Of a DNA stretch of 64,000 nucleotides, positions 50,705 to 60,020 are shown piece after piece. Every line of letters begins with the position of its first letter. The first letter of the stretch is position 1. Source of the DNA: an uncultured Clostridia bacterium (GTDB taxonomy: Bacteria > Bacillota > Clostridia > Christensenellales > Borkfalkiaceae); contig CANRAD010000012.1 of NCBI GenBank assembly GCA_947628505.1, forward strand, positions 1-64,000, written 5' to 3'. A program made the position numbers and the translations under genes. The notes below the pieces were generated by a model. The model was not told the DNA's origin. It made no database searches and saw only the letters and a program-made list of their open reading frames with translations.

Positions 50705-50734
50705 AGTATACGGAATTAAAGTTTATTTATACAA
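50705..50734 (-). promoter_or_regulatory. dacF promoter (leaderless type)
   Basis: Minus-strand TTGTAT (50729-50734), 18 bp, TATACT (50705-50710), then 6 nt and ATG 50698. Overlaps the end of the upstream gene. Confidence 0.55.
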
Positions 50735-51269
50735 TTGAAATCAGCACTCTGAATACCACGTTAATGAGCAAAGCATATAAAATCAAATCGATAACCGAAA
50801 TTATTACGGGCAAGATAAAGATATATTTTCTATTGATTTTCTTGCAACATTCACCCAAAACGAAACATAACCCTATCGAAACAAGCGAAGCCGGAAGGAA
50901 TACGAAAAGCGTTACGATAATCCCGCCGAAAGCGCTTGCGCTCACTAAAATCACAGTATATACGCCGAAAAACAGTCCTCTTAAAAATACAAATACAAGA
51001 GTTACATATTTGAATTTCGTAAAAACGCAAATAAAGAGAAAGATGTAAAGATAAATGAGGTCGGTCAGAAGATGACCGATTAGAAGCGTTGTGTTTTTAA
51101 AATTAAATACGTTAAAAACATAATCAAACGCCAAATTTCTGAAATAAATGTTCGTTGTAACGGGTTTGTATAGTACTATGCCACATATAATCGAGCAAAT
51201 AAGCGTTATTAAAAATGCAAAAAAATATTTTTTATCGCATTTCAGGCTTTCAAAATTCAAATTCCTCAT
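50727..51269 (-). CDS. SpoIIM-like sporulation membrane protein
   Basis: About 180-aa protein with five hydrophobic segments. The block FVFLRGLFFGVYTVILV...FGGIIVTLFVFLPASLV lines up by eye with the conserved region of SpoIIM (G-x3-G, G-x-I, then LPxxL), part of the DMP peptidoglycan-hydrolase complex driving engulfment. Identity is low, so this is a suggestion supported by location next to spoIVB and dacF. ATG 51269 (an upstream TTG is at 51275) lies inside a 14-bp inverted repeat. Confidence 0.55.
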   Translation of the reverse strand: MRNLNFESLKCDKKYFFAFLITLICSIICGIVLYKPVTTNIYFRNLAFDYVFNVFNFKNTTLLIGHLLTDLIYLYIFLFICVFTKFKYVTLVFVFLRGLFFGVYTVILVSASAFGGIIVTLFVFLPASLVSIGLCFVLGECCKKINRKYIFILPVIISVIDLILYALLINVVFRVLISIV

Positions 51270-51290
51270 ATACAATTATATGAGGAATTT
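51259..51290 (-). repeat. 14-bp inverted repeat between spoIVB and the SpoIIM-like gene
   Basis: AAATTCCTCATATA (51259-51272) and TATATGAGGAATTT (51277-51290) are perfect reverse complements with a CAAT loop. In the transcript it buries the start codon of the downstream gene; the T-run is too weak for a strong terminator. Confidence 0.7.
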
Positions 51291-55390: not shown

Positions 55391-56132
55391 ACTTTATCAT
55401 TTTTTCATTAATTTCCGCCGCGCCGCCCTTCTTTAAAAGGACCAAATATTCTTTGTTCTTACCCTTAACTATCGGCGCATTCGTAAGTTTTAGCGGTGCA
55501 AGCCCGCAACCCCGCGCATAATCGCATATTTTTATTATCGCGCTTTTATGTTGCTGTGCTCCACTCACAATACCGCCCTTGCCGACATGTCTGTCGTCGC
55601 ACTCAAATTGCGGTTTGATAAGGGCTATGCAGTATCCTCCGTCTTTCAGCACTTCGGCAACATTGGAAAGAATGTATGTAAGCGATATAAAACTTACGTC
55701 TATCACCACACCGTCCGGCTGTTCGCCGAATATATCGGAAGTGAGTTCTCTTGCGTTAAAATTATCGATTACTTTTATTTTTTCGCCTATAAGGCTTTTA
55801 TCCAACTGACTCTCGCCGACGTCTATGCAGTATACCTTTTTTGCTCCGTTTTGCAGAAGGCAATCCGTAAAACCTCCGGTACTCGCCCCGATATCGGCAA
55901 ATATCATATTTTTAACGCTGAACTTGAAATCTTTTAAAGCCTTGGACAATTTATATCCGCCGAGCGAGACATAACTTTCTTCGGGCTTTAAAAAATCCAG
56001 GCTGTCGCTCTCTTTAATCTCATAAGAAACGTCAACTTTTTTCCCGTTGACGAGCACAAGTCCGTCTTTCACAGCTCTCGCCGCTTTCGTCCGTGAGCCG
56101 AATTTTTCGGTTAAAAATTTATCTATTCTCAT
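55377..56132 (-). CDS. tlyA: TlyA-family rRNA 2'-O-methyltransferase
   Basis: 251 aa: S4 RNA-binding domain (MRIDKFLTEKFGSRTKAARAVKDG) and FtsJ-type Rossmann methyltransferase (MIFADIGASTGGFTDCLLQNGA; DVSFISLTYIL; LIKPQFE). Homologues modify 16S/23S rRNA; originally called haemolysin. Overlaps dxs by 14 nt. Confidence 0.94.
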   Translation of the reverse strand: MRIDKFLTEKFGSRTKAARAVKDGLVLVNGKKVDVSYEIKESDSLDFLKPEESYVSLGGYKLSKALKDFKFSVKNMIFADIGASTGGFTDCLLQNGAKKVYCIDVGESQLDKSLIGEKIKVIDNFNARELTSDIFGEQPDGVVIDVSFISLTYILSNVAEVLKDGGYCIALIKPQFECDDRHVGKGGIVSGAQQHKSAIIKICDYARGCGLAPLKLTNAPIVKGKNKEYLVLLKKGGAAEINEKMIKSVKL

Positions 56133-57861
56133 TTTCGATTATAAAATCGGAGATTGCCTTAGCGCTTACGCCTTGCTCCGAGGCAAGCACGGAGGGATTG
56201 CCCTGCGAAATAAAACCATCTTTATATGCAAAATTCTTTACTTTCGTATCGGAATTGCAAAAATACGTATCTATTATCGAACCGAAACCTCCGGCGAGCA
56301 CGTTGTCCTCAACCGTAATTATAGTTTTGCCTGAAAAACTTCCGAGCATCTCGTTATCGAGAGGTTTTATAAAACGCGCGTTTACGACTTCCACGCCTAT
56401 TCCCTGCCCCGAAAGGTTTTCGACAGCCTCAAAAGAATATGACAGCGCATTCTCGCCGCATGCAAGAATGACATATTTACTGTCGTCCGAGGATATGAGT
56501 TTTTCCCATTTTCCGAACCCGAACTCGGCGGCGGATCTGAAAATTCTGCGGCCGTCTCTCGGGTATCTTATCGCCAAAGGCGCGTTGTAGTCTACGCTGA
56601 ATTCAAGCATTTTCTCAAATTCTTTGACATCTTTCGGCACTGCAATCGTAAGATTGGGCACAAGTCCCAAAAACGAAAGGTCGAATACTCCCTGATGAGT
56701 TTCGCCGTCGGAACCGGATATCCCGGCTCTGTCTATGCATAGCGTTACGGGTAAATTCTGACTGCATATATCAATAATTATTTCATCGAACGAACGCTGT
56801 AAAAATGTTGAATATACGGCATAATACGGCTTCATACCTTCGGTAGCCATGGCCGAACACAGGATTGTTGCGTGTTCTTCGCAAATCCCGACGTCAATGG
56901 AACGTTCGGGATATTTTTCAAAGAACTCCGAAAGTCCGAGACTCGAAGTCATTGCCGCGGTTACCGCCGTTATCCTTTTATCCGTTGCGGCGAGGCGAGT
57001 CAGAGTGTTTCCGAGCACCGAGGAATATTCGGTATAAATCCTATCCGTCTGCGCAATCGAAATACCGTGAGTAGCTTCGGGATGTTCTTCGCAAAAAGCG
57101 TAACCCTTCCCCTTCTTCGTTGCCACGTGCAAAATCACGGATTCATACCCGAGCCGGTTTTTTATTTCGGTAAGTTTGGCAATCATCTGTTCCAGATCAT
57201 TGCCGTCATAAACGCCGTCGTACTTGAATCCGAATCTTTCGAAAATTTTCGCATGCCTGTCTTTTTTCTCTTGTTGCTGAGCATTTTCGCTAAGTATTTC
57301 GAGATATTCGTGCATGCTTCCGACAGTCGGGGAAATAGACATACCGTTGTCGTTGAGTATAACGAGAATATGCGTATTCAGAAGTTTAAGGCTGTTAAAC
57401 GCTTCGTAGACAAGACCGTTGTTGAAAGAGCCGTCGCCGATAACGGCGATTACGTTGAATTTCTCTCCCTTGATATCGCGCGCTTTGGCAATCCCGAGCG
57501 CCGCAGAAACAGATGTGCCCGCATGCCCTGTATTATAACAGTCGTAATCGCTTTCGCTCCTTTTGGGGAAACCCGATATGCCGTTCTTTTGACGCAATCC
57601 GTCGAAATCTTTATATCTTCCGCTCAAAAGTTTATGAGTATAGCACTGATGGCCCACGTCGAAAATTATCTTGTCTTCGGGGAAATCAAATACGTAGTGA
57701 AGCGCAACCGTGAGTTCAACCATGCCGAGATTGGACGACAAATGTCCCCCGTTTTTCAAAACGGTTTTGGTGATTTTTTCTCTCGCTTCCTCCGAAAGAG
57801 CCAAAAGCTCTTTCAACGTCATACTTTTAAGTTGCGCACCGGTAATATTTTCAAGCATCAC
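56119..57861 (-). CDS. dxs: 1-deoxy-D-xylulose-5-phosphate synthase
   Basis: 580-aa thiamine-diphosphate enzyme, first step of the MEP isoprenoid pathway. HLSSNLGMVELTVALHYVF, TPP motif GDGSFNNGLVYEA, EEHATILCSAMATEG and DRAGISGSDGETHQG are present. Shorter than the usual 620-640 aa, mainly in loops. Starts at an ATGA overlap with the four-TM protein gene, downstream of the OLE-type RNA. Confidence 0.97.
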   Translation of the reverse strand: MMLENITGAQLKSMTLKELLALSEEAREKITKTVLKNGGHLSSNLGMVELTVALHYVFDFPEDKIIFDVGHQCYTHKLLSGRYKDFDGLRQKNGISGFPKRSESDYDCYNTGHAGTSVSAALGIAKARDIKGEKFNVIAVIGDGSFNNGLVYEAFNSLKLLNTHILVILNDNGMSISPTVGSMHEYLEILSENAQQQEKKDRHAKIFERFGFKYDGVYDGNDLEQMIAKLTEIKNRLGYESVILHVATKKGKGYAFCEEHPEATHGISIAQTDRIYTEYSSVLGNTLTRLAATDKRITAVTAAMTSSLGLSEFFEKYPERSIDVGICEEHATILCSAMATEGMKPYYAVYSTFLQRSFDEIIIDICSQNLPVTLCIDRAGISGSDGETHQGVFDLSFLGLVPNLTIAVPKDVKEFEKMLEFSVDYNAPLAIRYPRDGRRIFRSAAEFGFGKWEKLISSDDSKYVILACGENALSYSFEAVENLSGQGIGVEVVNARFIKPLDNEMLGSFSGKTIITVEDNVLAGGFGSIIDTYFCNSDTKVKNFAYKDGFISQGNPSVLASEQGVSAKAISDFIIENENR

Positions 57862-58490
57862 TTCTCCCTTTTGAAGAAGGTAGTAAATCTGGCAAAGCCG
57901 AAAACTATCTGCTTATTGAATTTGATTGCAAAATGTTTGAATATAGCTTTACCTCCGACTGTAAGCGCGCCTATTATCGCGCTTATCAATATGGAGGCGA
58001 TCAGTTCGCCGACTCTTCCGCCCATTGCAACGTGAACGACAAGCGCAGTGCCAGCGGCGCCGCTGACGATACCGCAGATATCGCCTATTACATCGGCGAA
58101 AATACTTCCCAATCTGCTGGCATTGCGACAAAAAGTAACAGCTCTCTTCGCTCCTTTGATTTTGTTCGAAGCCATGGCGTGAAAACATTCCGGCTTACAA
58201 GAGATAATAGCGTTTGCCAAGACGTCGCAACTGATATTCAAAATCAACAGGACAAGTAAAACCATAACGCAAACAGCCGCCGGACTGTCCTTTATCGATA
58301 CTTCGGTTAAAAAACTGAATAAAACTGTCAACGCAAACGAAACGGCTAAAACAATCAATCCCCATGCAAGCCATTCGGGAAAACGTTTTTTCTTTGCCTT
58401 TTGTTTTTTGTTGACTTTTTTGTTTTTGGAAGGACTGTCATCATGCGCAGACGCGCCGTCTTCCTCGCTTAGATTTTCTATATTTTCCAT
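57858..58490 (-). CDS. oapA: Four-TM membrane protein, OapA-like (OLE-associated)
   Basis: 210-aa protein: acidic then very Lys-rich N-terminus (residues 1-37), then four predicted transmembrane segments (about 40-60, 70-97, 132-160, 163-190) and a basic tail. Intramembrane aspartates appear in TM2 (ISCDVLAN) and TM3 (FADVIGDICG). Topology, size and position immediately after the large RNA and before dxs match OapA, the membrane protein that binds OLE RNA in Halalkalibacterium halodurans. I infer identity mainly from synteny. ATG 58490 has a weak RBS (CGGAA). Confidence 0.75.
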   Translation of the reverse strand: MENIENLSEEDGASAHDDSPSKNKKVNKKQKAKKKRFPEWLAWGLIVLAVSFALTVLFSFLTEVSIKDSPAAVCVMVLLVLLILNISCDVLANAIISCKPECFHAMASNKIKGAKRAVTFCRNASRLGSIFADVIGDICGIVSGAAGTALVVHVAMGGRVGELIASILISAIIGALTVGGKAIFKHFAIKFNKQIVFGFARFTTFFKREK

Positions 58491-58501
58491 AATTCCGATT
58501 A

Positions 58502-58528
58502 AAAATAATACGCACAAACAGTGTGCGT
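58502..58528 (-). terminator. Terminator hairpin between OLE-type RNA and oapA
   Basis: Seven-bp stem ACGCACA / TGTGCGT with a 5-nt loop, then ATTATTTTT on the minus strand. oapA starts 12 nt beyond it, so its mRNA needs read-through or processing. Confidence 0.75.
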
Positions 58529-58537
58529 AAAGAAAAT

Positions 58538-59094
58538 GATATAGTGGTTTATATTAAATAAACTTTGCGGCTTAGGTTCGGTAGGATTTCCCTCGAAGCT
58601 CACTTCCCGTCGCCGTAGAAGCAGTTTCCTTTTCAGAGCCAGAACGCGTTTCCGCATAACCGAATCGCCACTTAGTCCACACCGTAATCTCTAATATAAA
58701 ATCAGTCTAGAAGCTTTCCTTGACAATTTCCAATGAGCTTATCCTCTTTTGCAAAATCAATTTCAAATAGCAATAGACTTGCGTCGTCTGGCCAAACGAA
58801 GCCGTCGTGTTCTATTATCCGCTGTTTTCACTCAAGGCAGGCTACTCTGTACCAAGCTTTCGCCTGATAGCAGGTTTATACCGGCAAAAGTAAGATTTAC
58901 CGGCCTCCACGGCGAATGGGGTTGGCTGCGGTATGCCGTTACCTAGCTCCCATACGCCTTTACTCCCAGCATTCACCCACTTTTGGCAAAGCAAGCAAAC
59001 ACCAGAAACTTCATCGATATGCCCTTTAACGGTATTTTACCCCCGTCTTCGTATCAATGGAAATTGACTAGAATACTGCACCACTATATCAATT
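58538..59094 (-). ncRNA. ole: OLE RNA (Ornate, Large, Extremophilic RNA)
   Basis: About 557 nt of non-coding, relatively GC-rich sequence. GATATAGTGGT at 58538-58548 pairs perfectly with ACCACTATATC at 59080-59090, closing the molecule. Internal helices include 58911-58918 with 58970-58977, 58931-58935 with 58951-58955, and 58881-58888 with 58896-58903 (the last with one wobble in RNA). A consensus promoter lies just upstream and a terminator hairpin just downstream. OLE RNA is about 600 nt and lies in Firmicute ispA-OLE-oapA-dxs gene sets, exactly the arrangement here. In Halalkalibacterium it forms a membrane ribonucleoprotein with OapA linked to cold, alcohol and Mg2+ responses. RNase P, tmRNA, SRP and 6S landmarks are absent. 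Confidence 0.88.
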
Positions 59095-59100
59095 TAATTT

Positions 59101-59129
59101 ATTATAACACAATTTGACGTTTTAGTCAA
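59101..59129 (-). promoter_or_regulatory. OLE RNA promoter
   Basis: Minus-strand TTGACT (59124-59129), 17 bp, TATAAT (59101-59106). The predicted start, about 59094, is 4 nt before the terminal helix. Confidence 0.85.
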
Positions 59130-59135
59130 TAGATT

Positions 59136-60020
59136 TTAACTTTTTCTGGATCTGACGCTCAAAACCAATTGTTTGAGAAATTCCGAATCGCCGTTTACCG
59201 CTTCGAGAATTTTAACGCAGTCGTCCGCCAAAACATCAGCCCTGATTTTGCTTCCGTCAAGTCCGTACAGAGAAACGGCTGTGAATTTCCCCTCTTTTTT
59301 GTCTTTGCCGACGCTCTTGCCCAACTCGGAAAACTCGCCTTCGATATCGAGAATATCGTCTGTTATCTGGAAAAGATACCCGAGTTTTTCACCGAAAAGT
59401 ACGAGTTCCGGAAAATATTTGTCTCCGGAAATTATCGCGGGAACAGCTACGGAAGCCATCAGCATTTTGCCGGTTTTGTTTTTGTAAATGAAATCAAGAA
59501 CTTCCTCGTCGGAATCAACGTCGTTCTCGTGCAAAAGGTCTGCGGACTGCCCGGCAATCATTCCGTGCACGCCGGCACATTCCGCTATATACCGAGACGC
59601 GCTTATATACTCCTCACCCTTTCCGCACTCGGACAAAAGCAACGAAAACGCCGTATTCAAAAGCCCGTCGCCGGCAAGAACGGCGTTACCAACGCCGAAA
59701 ACCTTATGATTTGAGGGCTTGCCGCGTCTAAAATCGTCGTTGTCCATTTCCGGAAGATCGTCGTGGATGAGCGAATATGTGTGAACAAGTTCGACGGCGA
59801 GTGCAAAAGGCTTGACTTTTTCGATTTCCACGCGCAAAAGCTCGGCAACGGCAAACATGAGAACCGGACGTATTCTTTTACCTCCGATTTTTAAGCTGTA
59901 TGTAAGGCTTTCACGAAGTATATCGGGTTTACAGTCCAATCCATCGCAAAATTTTAAAAGATAGTCGTTGAACTCTTTAAGATATCCGTCGTATTTTTCC
60001 TTGTAATTTTCCACTGTCAT
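59136..60020 (-). CDS. ispA: Polyprenyl (farnesyl/geranyl) diphosphate synthase
   Basis: 294-aa trans-prenyltransferase: first Asp-rich motif IHDDLPEMDNDDFRRGKPSNH, second FQITDDILD, and GGKRIRPVL. Small residues before the first motif fit a short-chain (C15) product. Overlaps folD by 4 nt. The usual xseA-xseB genes between folD and ispA are absent. OLE-type RNA follows. Confidence 0.95.
   Translation of the reverse strand: MTVENYKEKYDGYLKEFNDYLLKFCDGLDCKPDILRESLTYSLKIGGKRIRPVLMFAVAELLRVEIEKVKPFALAVELVHTYSLIHDDLPEMDNDDFRRGKPSNHKVFGVGNAVLAGDGLLNTAFSLLLSECGKGEEYISASRYIAECAGVHGMIAGQSADLLHENDVDSDEEVLDFIYKNKTGKMLMASVAVPAIISGDKYFPELVLFGEKLGYLFQITDDILDIEGEFSELGKSVGKDKKEGKFTAVSLYGLDGSKIRADVLADDCVKILEAVNGDSEFLKQLVLSVRSRKS

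Follow-up and report, generated by a model that had tools for sequence, protein, structure and literature searches.

An OLE RNA locus of an uncultured clostridium, joint loss of ole and oapA among its relatives, and two oapA loci in which no OLE was found

OLE is one of the largest and most elaborate structured RNAs of bacteria, and its biochemical task is not known. The closest described systems are the OLE RNA and the membrane protein OapA of H. halodurans, the OLE RNAs termed variant 1 (TANB77 type) and the CNNM-CBS-HlyC/CorC metal transporters MpfA, CorB and CorC. An anticorrelation between OLE and MpfA has been published by Fernando and Breaker (PMC11332333), as has the idea that OLE is a stand-in for the CBS and HlyC/CorC domains (PMC11332333, PMC12265935). 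Here we describe an OLE RNA in a 64-kb window, the whole stretch of DNA that was analyzed, which is part of contig C12 of an uncultured clostridium (genome of 1.71 Mb, 40 contigs, 98.7% complete), and compare it with other genomes (labels starting with G) and loci (labels starting with L). The RNA is of a known kind, ordinary, and was correctly recognized in an earlier sequence-only reading. The new observations concern its surroundings in neighboring species, which offer material for tests that is of moderate to high interest.

The OLE RNA of the window and its transcription

The Rfam covariance model of OLE matches the locus over its full length with 399.1 bits, compared to a gathering cut-off of 50 bits (Table 1), which bears out the assignment made in the sequence-only reading. 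A tRNA is the only other Rfam match in the window, and no second OLE match was found in the genome. The locus is thus a genuine member of the OLE family. The order ispA-OLE-oapA-dxs, all on the minus strand, was also read correctly, as was a perfect 11-bp helix joining the ends of the RNA. This helix is OLE P1. Since the Rfam consensus leaves P1 unpaired, its covariation constitutes a separate test. Pairs were counted for P1, P2, P3 and P3.1 in 40 OLE sequences: P1 pairs in 86% of the cells, P3.1 shows changes on both sides in seven of eight pairs, and P2 and P3 are invariant and therefore uninformative on covariation. Taken together, the four helices pair in 89% of the cells versus 28–47% with the partners slid. 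The fold of the window RNA beats 100 out of 100 shuffles (z = -3.3), and the RNA retains 200 out of 214 positions that are conserved in OLE sequences from outside the genus. The description of the stretch as GC-rich, in contrast, was wrong (43.6% for OLE, 42.4% for the window).

The P7 region is short throughout the genus, with 17–31 nucleotides (nt) in 14 of 14 rows versus 36–68 nt in 24 of 26 other rows; of the remaining two, L127 has 28 nt and the length of L117 was mismeasured by the search pattern. The P8 region comprises 25 nt in the genus and 25–37 nt elsewhere. For P9 we found 88 nt in the window RNA, using a pattern that misread several other rows. The P13 loop (CGGCGACG/CGGTGACG) is present in all 14 genus rows. 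According to PMC11332333, P7, P8 and P9 are short in variant 1, the OapB site at the end of P13 is often missing, and OapB and OapC are largely absent. The short P7 and the failure to find OapC (see below) would agree with an assignment of the window RNA to this variant. However, P8 (at the low end of the range) and P9 show no unusual shortening, the genus retains the P13 loop and OapB is encoded, so that this assignment is largely refuted and we consider it unlikely. Compared with the definitions of both variant 1 and variant 2 in the same paper, the window RNA fits neither. The OLE RNA of a comparison genome (G002, locus L029) deviates in the k-turn: at RNA positions 84–86, C85 is changed and the next k-turn base is missing by alignment. 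OapC no longer binds the H. halodurans RNA when C85 is replaced by A (PMC9723947).

The TTGACT-17-TATAAT promoter named in the sequence-only reading is present directly upstream, and the 5' end of the RNA is predicted, from position, to lie directly past the -10 box. Of 71 OLE loci, 54 have a promoter-like pair (at least 9 of 12 matches, ending 8–24 nt before the OLE anchor) at a similar distance upstream of the 5' core, while 100 mononucleotide shuffles gave a mean of 7.1 and a maximum of 13. These 71 loci, with 65 distinct upstream sequences, were the usable ones among 110; the other 39 had no anchor, too little upstream sequence or no OLE. An own promoter is not new as such, because it was already stated for ole of H. 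halodurans (PMC9723947).

The terminator-like hairpin at the 3' end was likewise found, and it is a feature of the genus. Directly after P1, a perfect hairpin followed by T's was observed at 11 of the 14 loci from the genus and at 10 of 12 named loci close to it, a set that partly repeats the same species. The rest of the order (16 loci) gave none, and of 39 loci further away 8 have the hairpin; from shuffles, 0.04–0.10 loci would be expected per set. The genus and near sets together comprise 26 loci with 21 distinct downstream sequences. The stem is kept across the 11 genus loci while the loops change. The 64-kb window contains the pattern ACGCAC..GTGCGT a single time, and none of 100 shuffles contains it. 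A general terminator scan, with two terminator-like sites versus 2.8 in shuffles, showed no excess. We found no description of this hairpin in the accessible parts of the OLE literature.

Could the OLE RNA be a mere processed piece of the ispA-dxs operon messenger RNA, with promoter and hairpin being chance matches? A single polycistronic RNA spans the cluster in H. halodurans, where OLE undergoes processing at its 3' end (PMC12265935, PMC11332333), and a general promoter scan gave six promoter-like sites in 1.9 kb versus 3.0 in shuffles. The recurrence of the promoter-like pair at a similar distance, counted on loci that include some duplicates, and a terminator stem retained with varying loops argue against this explanation, which we regard as quite improbable. 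The same two features strengthen the earlier suggestion of a discrete transcript. With high confidence, OLE is predicted to be made as an RNA of its own with a length of approximately 550–590 nt, and family membership and a discrete transcript very probably hold together.

Joint loss of ole and oapA, and oapA loci with no OLE found

OLE was found in 21 of 37 genomes of the genus, 20 of them by a genome search and G015 by a locus search. In 11 of the 16 genomes without OLE (loci L165–L175), ispA and dxs are adjacent on one contig and the gene order is otherwise kept, with neither a trace of OLE at E ≤ 1 nor an oapA gene between them. Searching these 11 genomes with the OapA profile did not reveal oapA elsewhere, three weak matches apart (G001, G007 and G031, E-values of 1e-4 to 1e-3); these lie at other places, and those of G001 and G031 are MpfA-type frames. 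The five other genomes (G003, G005, G010, G023, G035) were left unjudged, as the dxs orthologue was not found or was diverged without ispA upstream. In the 11 species, asp23 and tlyA flank the locus in all cases and spoIIIAH in ten; the eleventh gave no spoIIIAH match in the fetched stretch. A connection between the loss of OLE and the loss of sporulation genes is therefore unsupported.

In a tree built from Dxs, IspA and FolD, with G038 and G051 left out for lack of data, ten of the 11 species group together in a single well-supported clade that does not include G025, so that the joint losses of ole and oapA number one or two. The genus thus represents a natural experiment, with near relatives that carry or lack ole and oapA in one unchanged gene order. 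Tests of OLE function may become simpler with such close relatives, which have lost the RNA in more than one manner.

A finding of "no OLE" in a draft genome requires a check of the gene order, because contigs end inside OLE. Partial matches in G009, G011, G016, G021, G022 and G033, considered as shortened RNAs, were rejected for this reason, and contigs also end inside OLE in G015 and G054. G015 was a false negative of the genome search; its contig-end fragment scores 177 bits. At the level of loci, such contig ends were noted in L034–L040 and L052, and also in L085, L093 and L098. OLE may be under-counted in metagenome-assembled genomes.

The losses raise the possibility that the window OLE is a decaying relic on its way to the same fate. 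The absence of ole and oapA from 11 species of the genus, the short P7 and the failure to find OapC would be in line with this. On the other hand, nearly all outside-conserved positions are kept (200 of 214), the helices covary in the 40-sequence set, the oapA frame is intact and both promoter and hairpin are present. We therefore give the relic hypothesis hardly any probability.

Frames with a CNNM domain, measured from stop to stop, of at least 420 amino acids (E < 1e-30) occur in nine of the 11 OLE-less genus members and in none of the 21 OLE-bearing ones; frames of 335–388 amino acids occur in six of the latter. In a domain scan, four short proteins (G000, G008, G017, G019) lacked CorC_HlyC and five long, MpfA-type ones (G001, G018, G026, G041, G043) contained it; the first MpfA-type copy of G001 was left out of the scan, and all other proteins were classed by length. 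Fisher's test of OLE versus MpfA-type frames in the genus gave 2e-6 for species that are not independent, while a kinship-aware test with three independent pairs on starred branches was not significant. The contrast reflects one or two evolutionary events only. Outside the genus, MpfA-type frames were found in six of six OLE-less genomes (including the two discussed below). Of 17 genomes with OLE, three carry such a frame, and a fourth (G055) has a piece of one at a contig end. A strict mutual exclusion of OLE and MpfA was rejected, given exceptions in both directions and the lack of significance on independent pairs of the tree. The pattern agrees with the published anticorrelation without proving it independently. 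The window genome has one other CNNM frame (L183, 437–1513, plus strand, 359 amino acids), which consists of CNNM and CBS domains with CorC_HlyC not found; three scanned OLE-bearing relatives show the same short form.

The OapA profile search covered 23 OLE-less genomes. In two of them, G043 and G041 from two other families of the same order, we observed the arrangement ispA-oapA-dxs with 91 and 33 nt, respectively, between ispA and the oapA frame. The loci are located on contigs of 164 kb (G043) and 253 kb (G041). The 5-kb loci gave no OLE match at E ≤ 1, and none was obtained from the whole genomes by a search that is known to miss a contig-end fragment and that in one round gave no match anywhere. 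MpfA-type frames are present in both genomes, and neither yielded an L7Ae-family match. Literature searches retrieved no prior report of such loci, which bear on the published remark that OLE and OapA "might never appear independently". In a further candidate, L112 from an uncultured member of the Bacilli, the 3 kb searched around oapA contain no OLE, but its belt motif (see below) is intact and its neighborhood differs; as the search covered this stretch only, L112 is not counted as an orphan. The contigs of L088, L099 and L114 stop shortly upstream of oapA.

An alignment of OapA from 110 OLE-side loci, including L112 and three contig-end loci, contains 26 columns conserved in at least 85% of the rows. 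Six of 118 loci had been dropped because no single frame with the motif was found, and 106 of all 112 rows, the two orphans included, are distinct. Both orphans differ at F103, M106 and G113, and the one from G041 also at K110; at the 22 other columns each differs twice. The enrichment in the four columns, which were picked after the fact, corresponds to Fisher p-values of 0.014 and 0.001 for the two orphans. In the 110 OLE-side rows, all four letters are kept in 83, one differs in 24, two differ in three (L006, L009, L011) and three differ in none. Rows were selected by the motif DxxxDxxG, so its invariance holds by construction; D89, G144, T177, K181 and K185 are invariant without being forced by the selection and are kept in both orphans. 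In a predicted model, the four residues are located in or between two short helices (101–108 and 114–122), a region which we take to be the place of the cytoplasmic belt in CNNM proteins.

These sequence comparisons might mean that OLE and OapA can be separated by the loss of one partner only. OapA would have persisted at the ole locus after a clean loss of the RNA in MpfA-carrying genomes of two families, with the membrane core kept and the cytoplasmic belt motif (F103, M106, K110, G113) decayed; OapA would then be a transporter able to act alone and the motif a docking surface for OLE RNA. We hold this view tentatively, at somewhat less than an even chance. The selection of rows by DxxxDxxG and the choice of the belt columns after seeing the data lower the probability of this view, and drift of two divergent proteins (n = 2) is a possible explanation of the belt changes. 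The orphan loci name residues to mutate.

Partner proteins and gene neighborhood

The neighboring membrane protein was rightly described as OapA-like: it has the position next to OLE, four predicted membrane helices (residues 39–66, 71–97, 124–155 and 160–190 in the model) and the DxxxDxxG motif. Residues 69–206 may resemble the CNNM membrane domain; a CBS or HlyC/CorC match was not found in a family scan. A search for the other two partners, suggested along with the sequence-only reading, was successful for OapB and without a hit for OapC. OapB, with 109 amino acids, is encoded between map (named by eye) and infA and matches 7k9b with an E-value of 1.5e-6. The Pfam KOW profile misses this protein. 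Its lone match shares the contig with infA but lies approximately 7 kb away, off the place of OapB, and presumably represents ribosomal protein L24; a reading of OapB as absent was dropped once the map-infA locus gave OapB. An L7Ae-family (OapC) protein was found in none of 23 genomes tested out of the 37 of the genus, including the window genome, and in 10 of 11 OLE-bearing relatives tested from the order, by a profile that cannot separate OapC from its paralogue. Within the natural experiment of the genus, MpfA-type frames thus occur where OLE is gone, OapB is kept and OapC was not found.

On the minus strand, the gene order is spoIIIAE, spoIIIAF, (spoIIIAG), spoIIIAH, asp23, nusB, folD, ispA, OLE, oapA, dxs, tlyA ... 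recN, spoIVB, where spoIIIAG, nusB, folD and recN were named from sequence and order without a family match. The closest OapA proteins in named records come from uncultured Clostridia; among the closest with a genus name are those of an uncultured Christensenella sp. (depositor's label, 75% identity) and of Candidatus Coproplasma avistercoris (52%). The host is an uncultured clostridium with a small genome, whose closest named relatives come from animal guts. A frame of 182 amino acids with hydrophobic stretches (50727–51275, minus strand) lies between spoIVB and a D-Ala-D-Ala carboxypeptidase gene and has no Pfam match at E 0.001.

Table 1. Features of the OLE locus (window positions) and of the two orphan oapA loci (positions within the named locus).
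Feature	Position	Strand	Evidence or remark
OLE RNA, full length	58528–59100	-	Rfam RF01071, 399.1 bits, E 8.9e-114, model 1–616 of 616; expected transcript ~550–590 nt
Sigma-70-type promoter TTGACT-17-TATAAT	59101–59129	-	11/12 matches, TG before -10
Helix P1, 5' strand, 11 bp	59080–59090	-	both-side changes in 9/11 pairs, 40 OLE sequences
Helix P1, 3' strand	58538–58548	-	partner of 59080–59090
OapC k-turn, 5' strand, intact	59009–59017	-	positions 84–92 of Rfam and H. halodurans; k-turn from PMC9723947
k-turn, 3' strand	58957–58962	-	positions 140–145; A at position 141, likewise in 14/14 genus rows
P7 hairpin, shortened	58881–58903	-	P7 region 28 nt
P13 hairpin, GCGA loop	58602–58622	-	OapB-bound region in H. 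halodurans per PMC9723947, PMC12054373
Intrinsic-terminator-like hairpin with T-rich tail, between OLE and oapA	58501–58529	-	hairpin 58529–58509, 8 pairs
oapA (OapA, 210 aa, four predicted membrane helices, FADVIGDICG)	57858–58490	-	place, helices, DxxxDxxG motif
ispA (polyprenyl synthetase), upstream neighbor	59136–60020	-	PF00348, E 3.1e-55
dxs, downstream neighbor	56119–57858	-	PF13292, E 3.1e-89
Orphan oapA between ispA and dxs	L053 1924–2577	-	OLE not found
Orphan oapA between ispA and dxs	L054 2636–3241	+	OLE not found

Proposed mechanism and comparison with known systems

Based on the published work we propose the following mechanism. In line with work on H. halodurans and with cryo-electron microscopy of other OLE RNAs, OLE RNA would dimerize through contacts of P4, P5.1/P6.1 and P9, a dimer of OapA would hold the RNA at the membrane, and OapB would bind at P13. 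In this complex, the RNA may do for the putatively CNNM-like membrane part of OapA what the CBS and HlyC/CorC domains do for MpfA, and the outcome would be a tuning of divalent-metal handling and stress tolerance. We consider a metal-handling role of OLE-OapA about as likely as not. Two sequence observations fit the published stand-in idea: MpfA is distributed in a manner complementary to OLE, and OapA also occurs at loci in which no OLE was found. If this explanation holds, the ribonucleoprotein of the window would work without OapC.

The window OLE is one more member of the family, perhaps already among the 2,822 hits in Bacillota counted in 2024 (PMC11332333). It shares with the H. halodurans type the whole secondary structure, the conserved core, oapA directly downstream, isoprenoid genes as neighbors, an own promoter and a gene for OapB. 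It differs in its length (573 nt versus 616 model positions), the shortened P7 and an A at k-turn position 141; the locus differs in the genus-specific terminator-like hairpin before oapA and in that an OapC-family protein was not found. With variant 1 (TANB77; Fernando and Breaker 2024, PMC11332333) it has in common the short P7, a small uncultured genome of gut type and OapC not being found, whereas P8, P9 and the P13 loop are unreduced and OapB is present. Compared to MpfA, CorB and CorC, OapA has a membrane part that may be similar to the CNNM domain (residues 69–206), but carries an extra N-terminal helix and neither a CBS nor an HlyC/CorC domain, and in this order the presence of MpfA is largely complementary to that of OLE.
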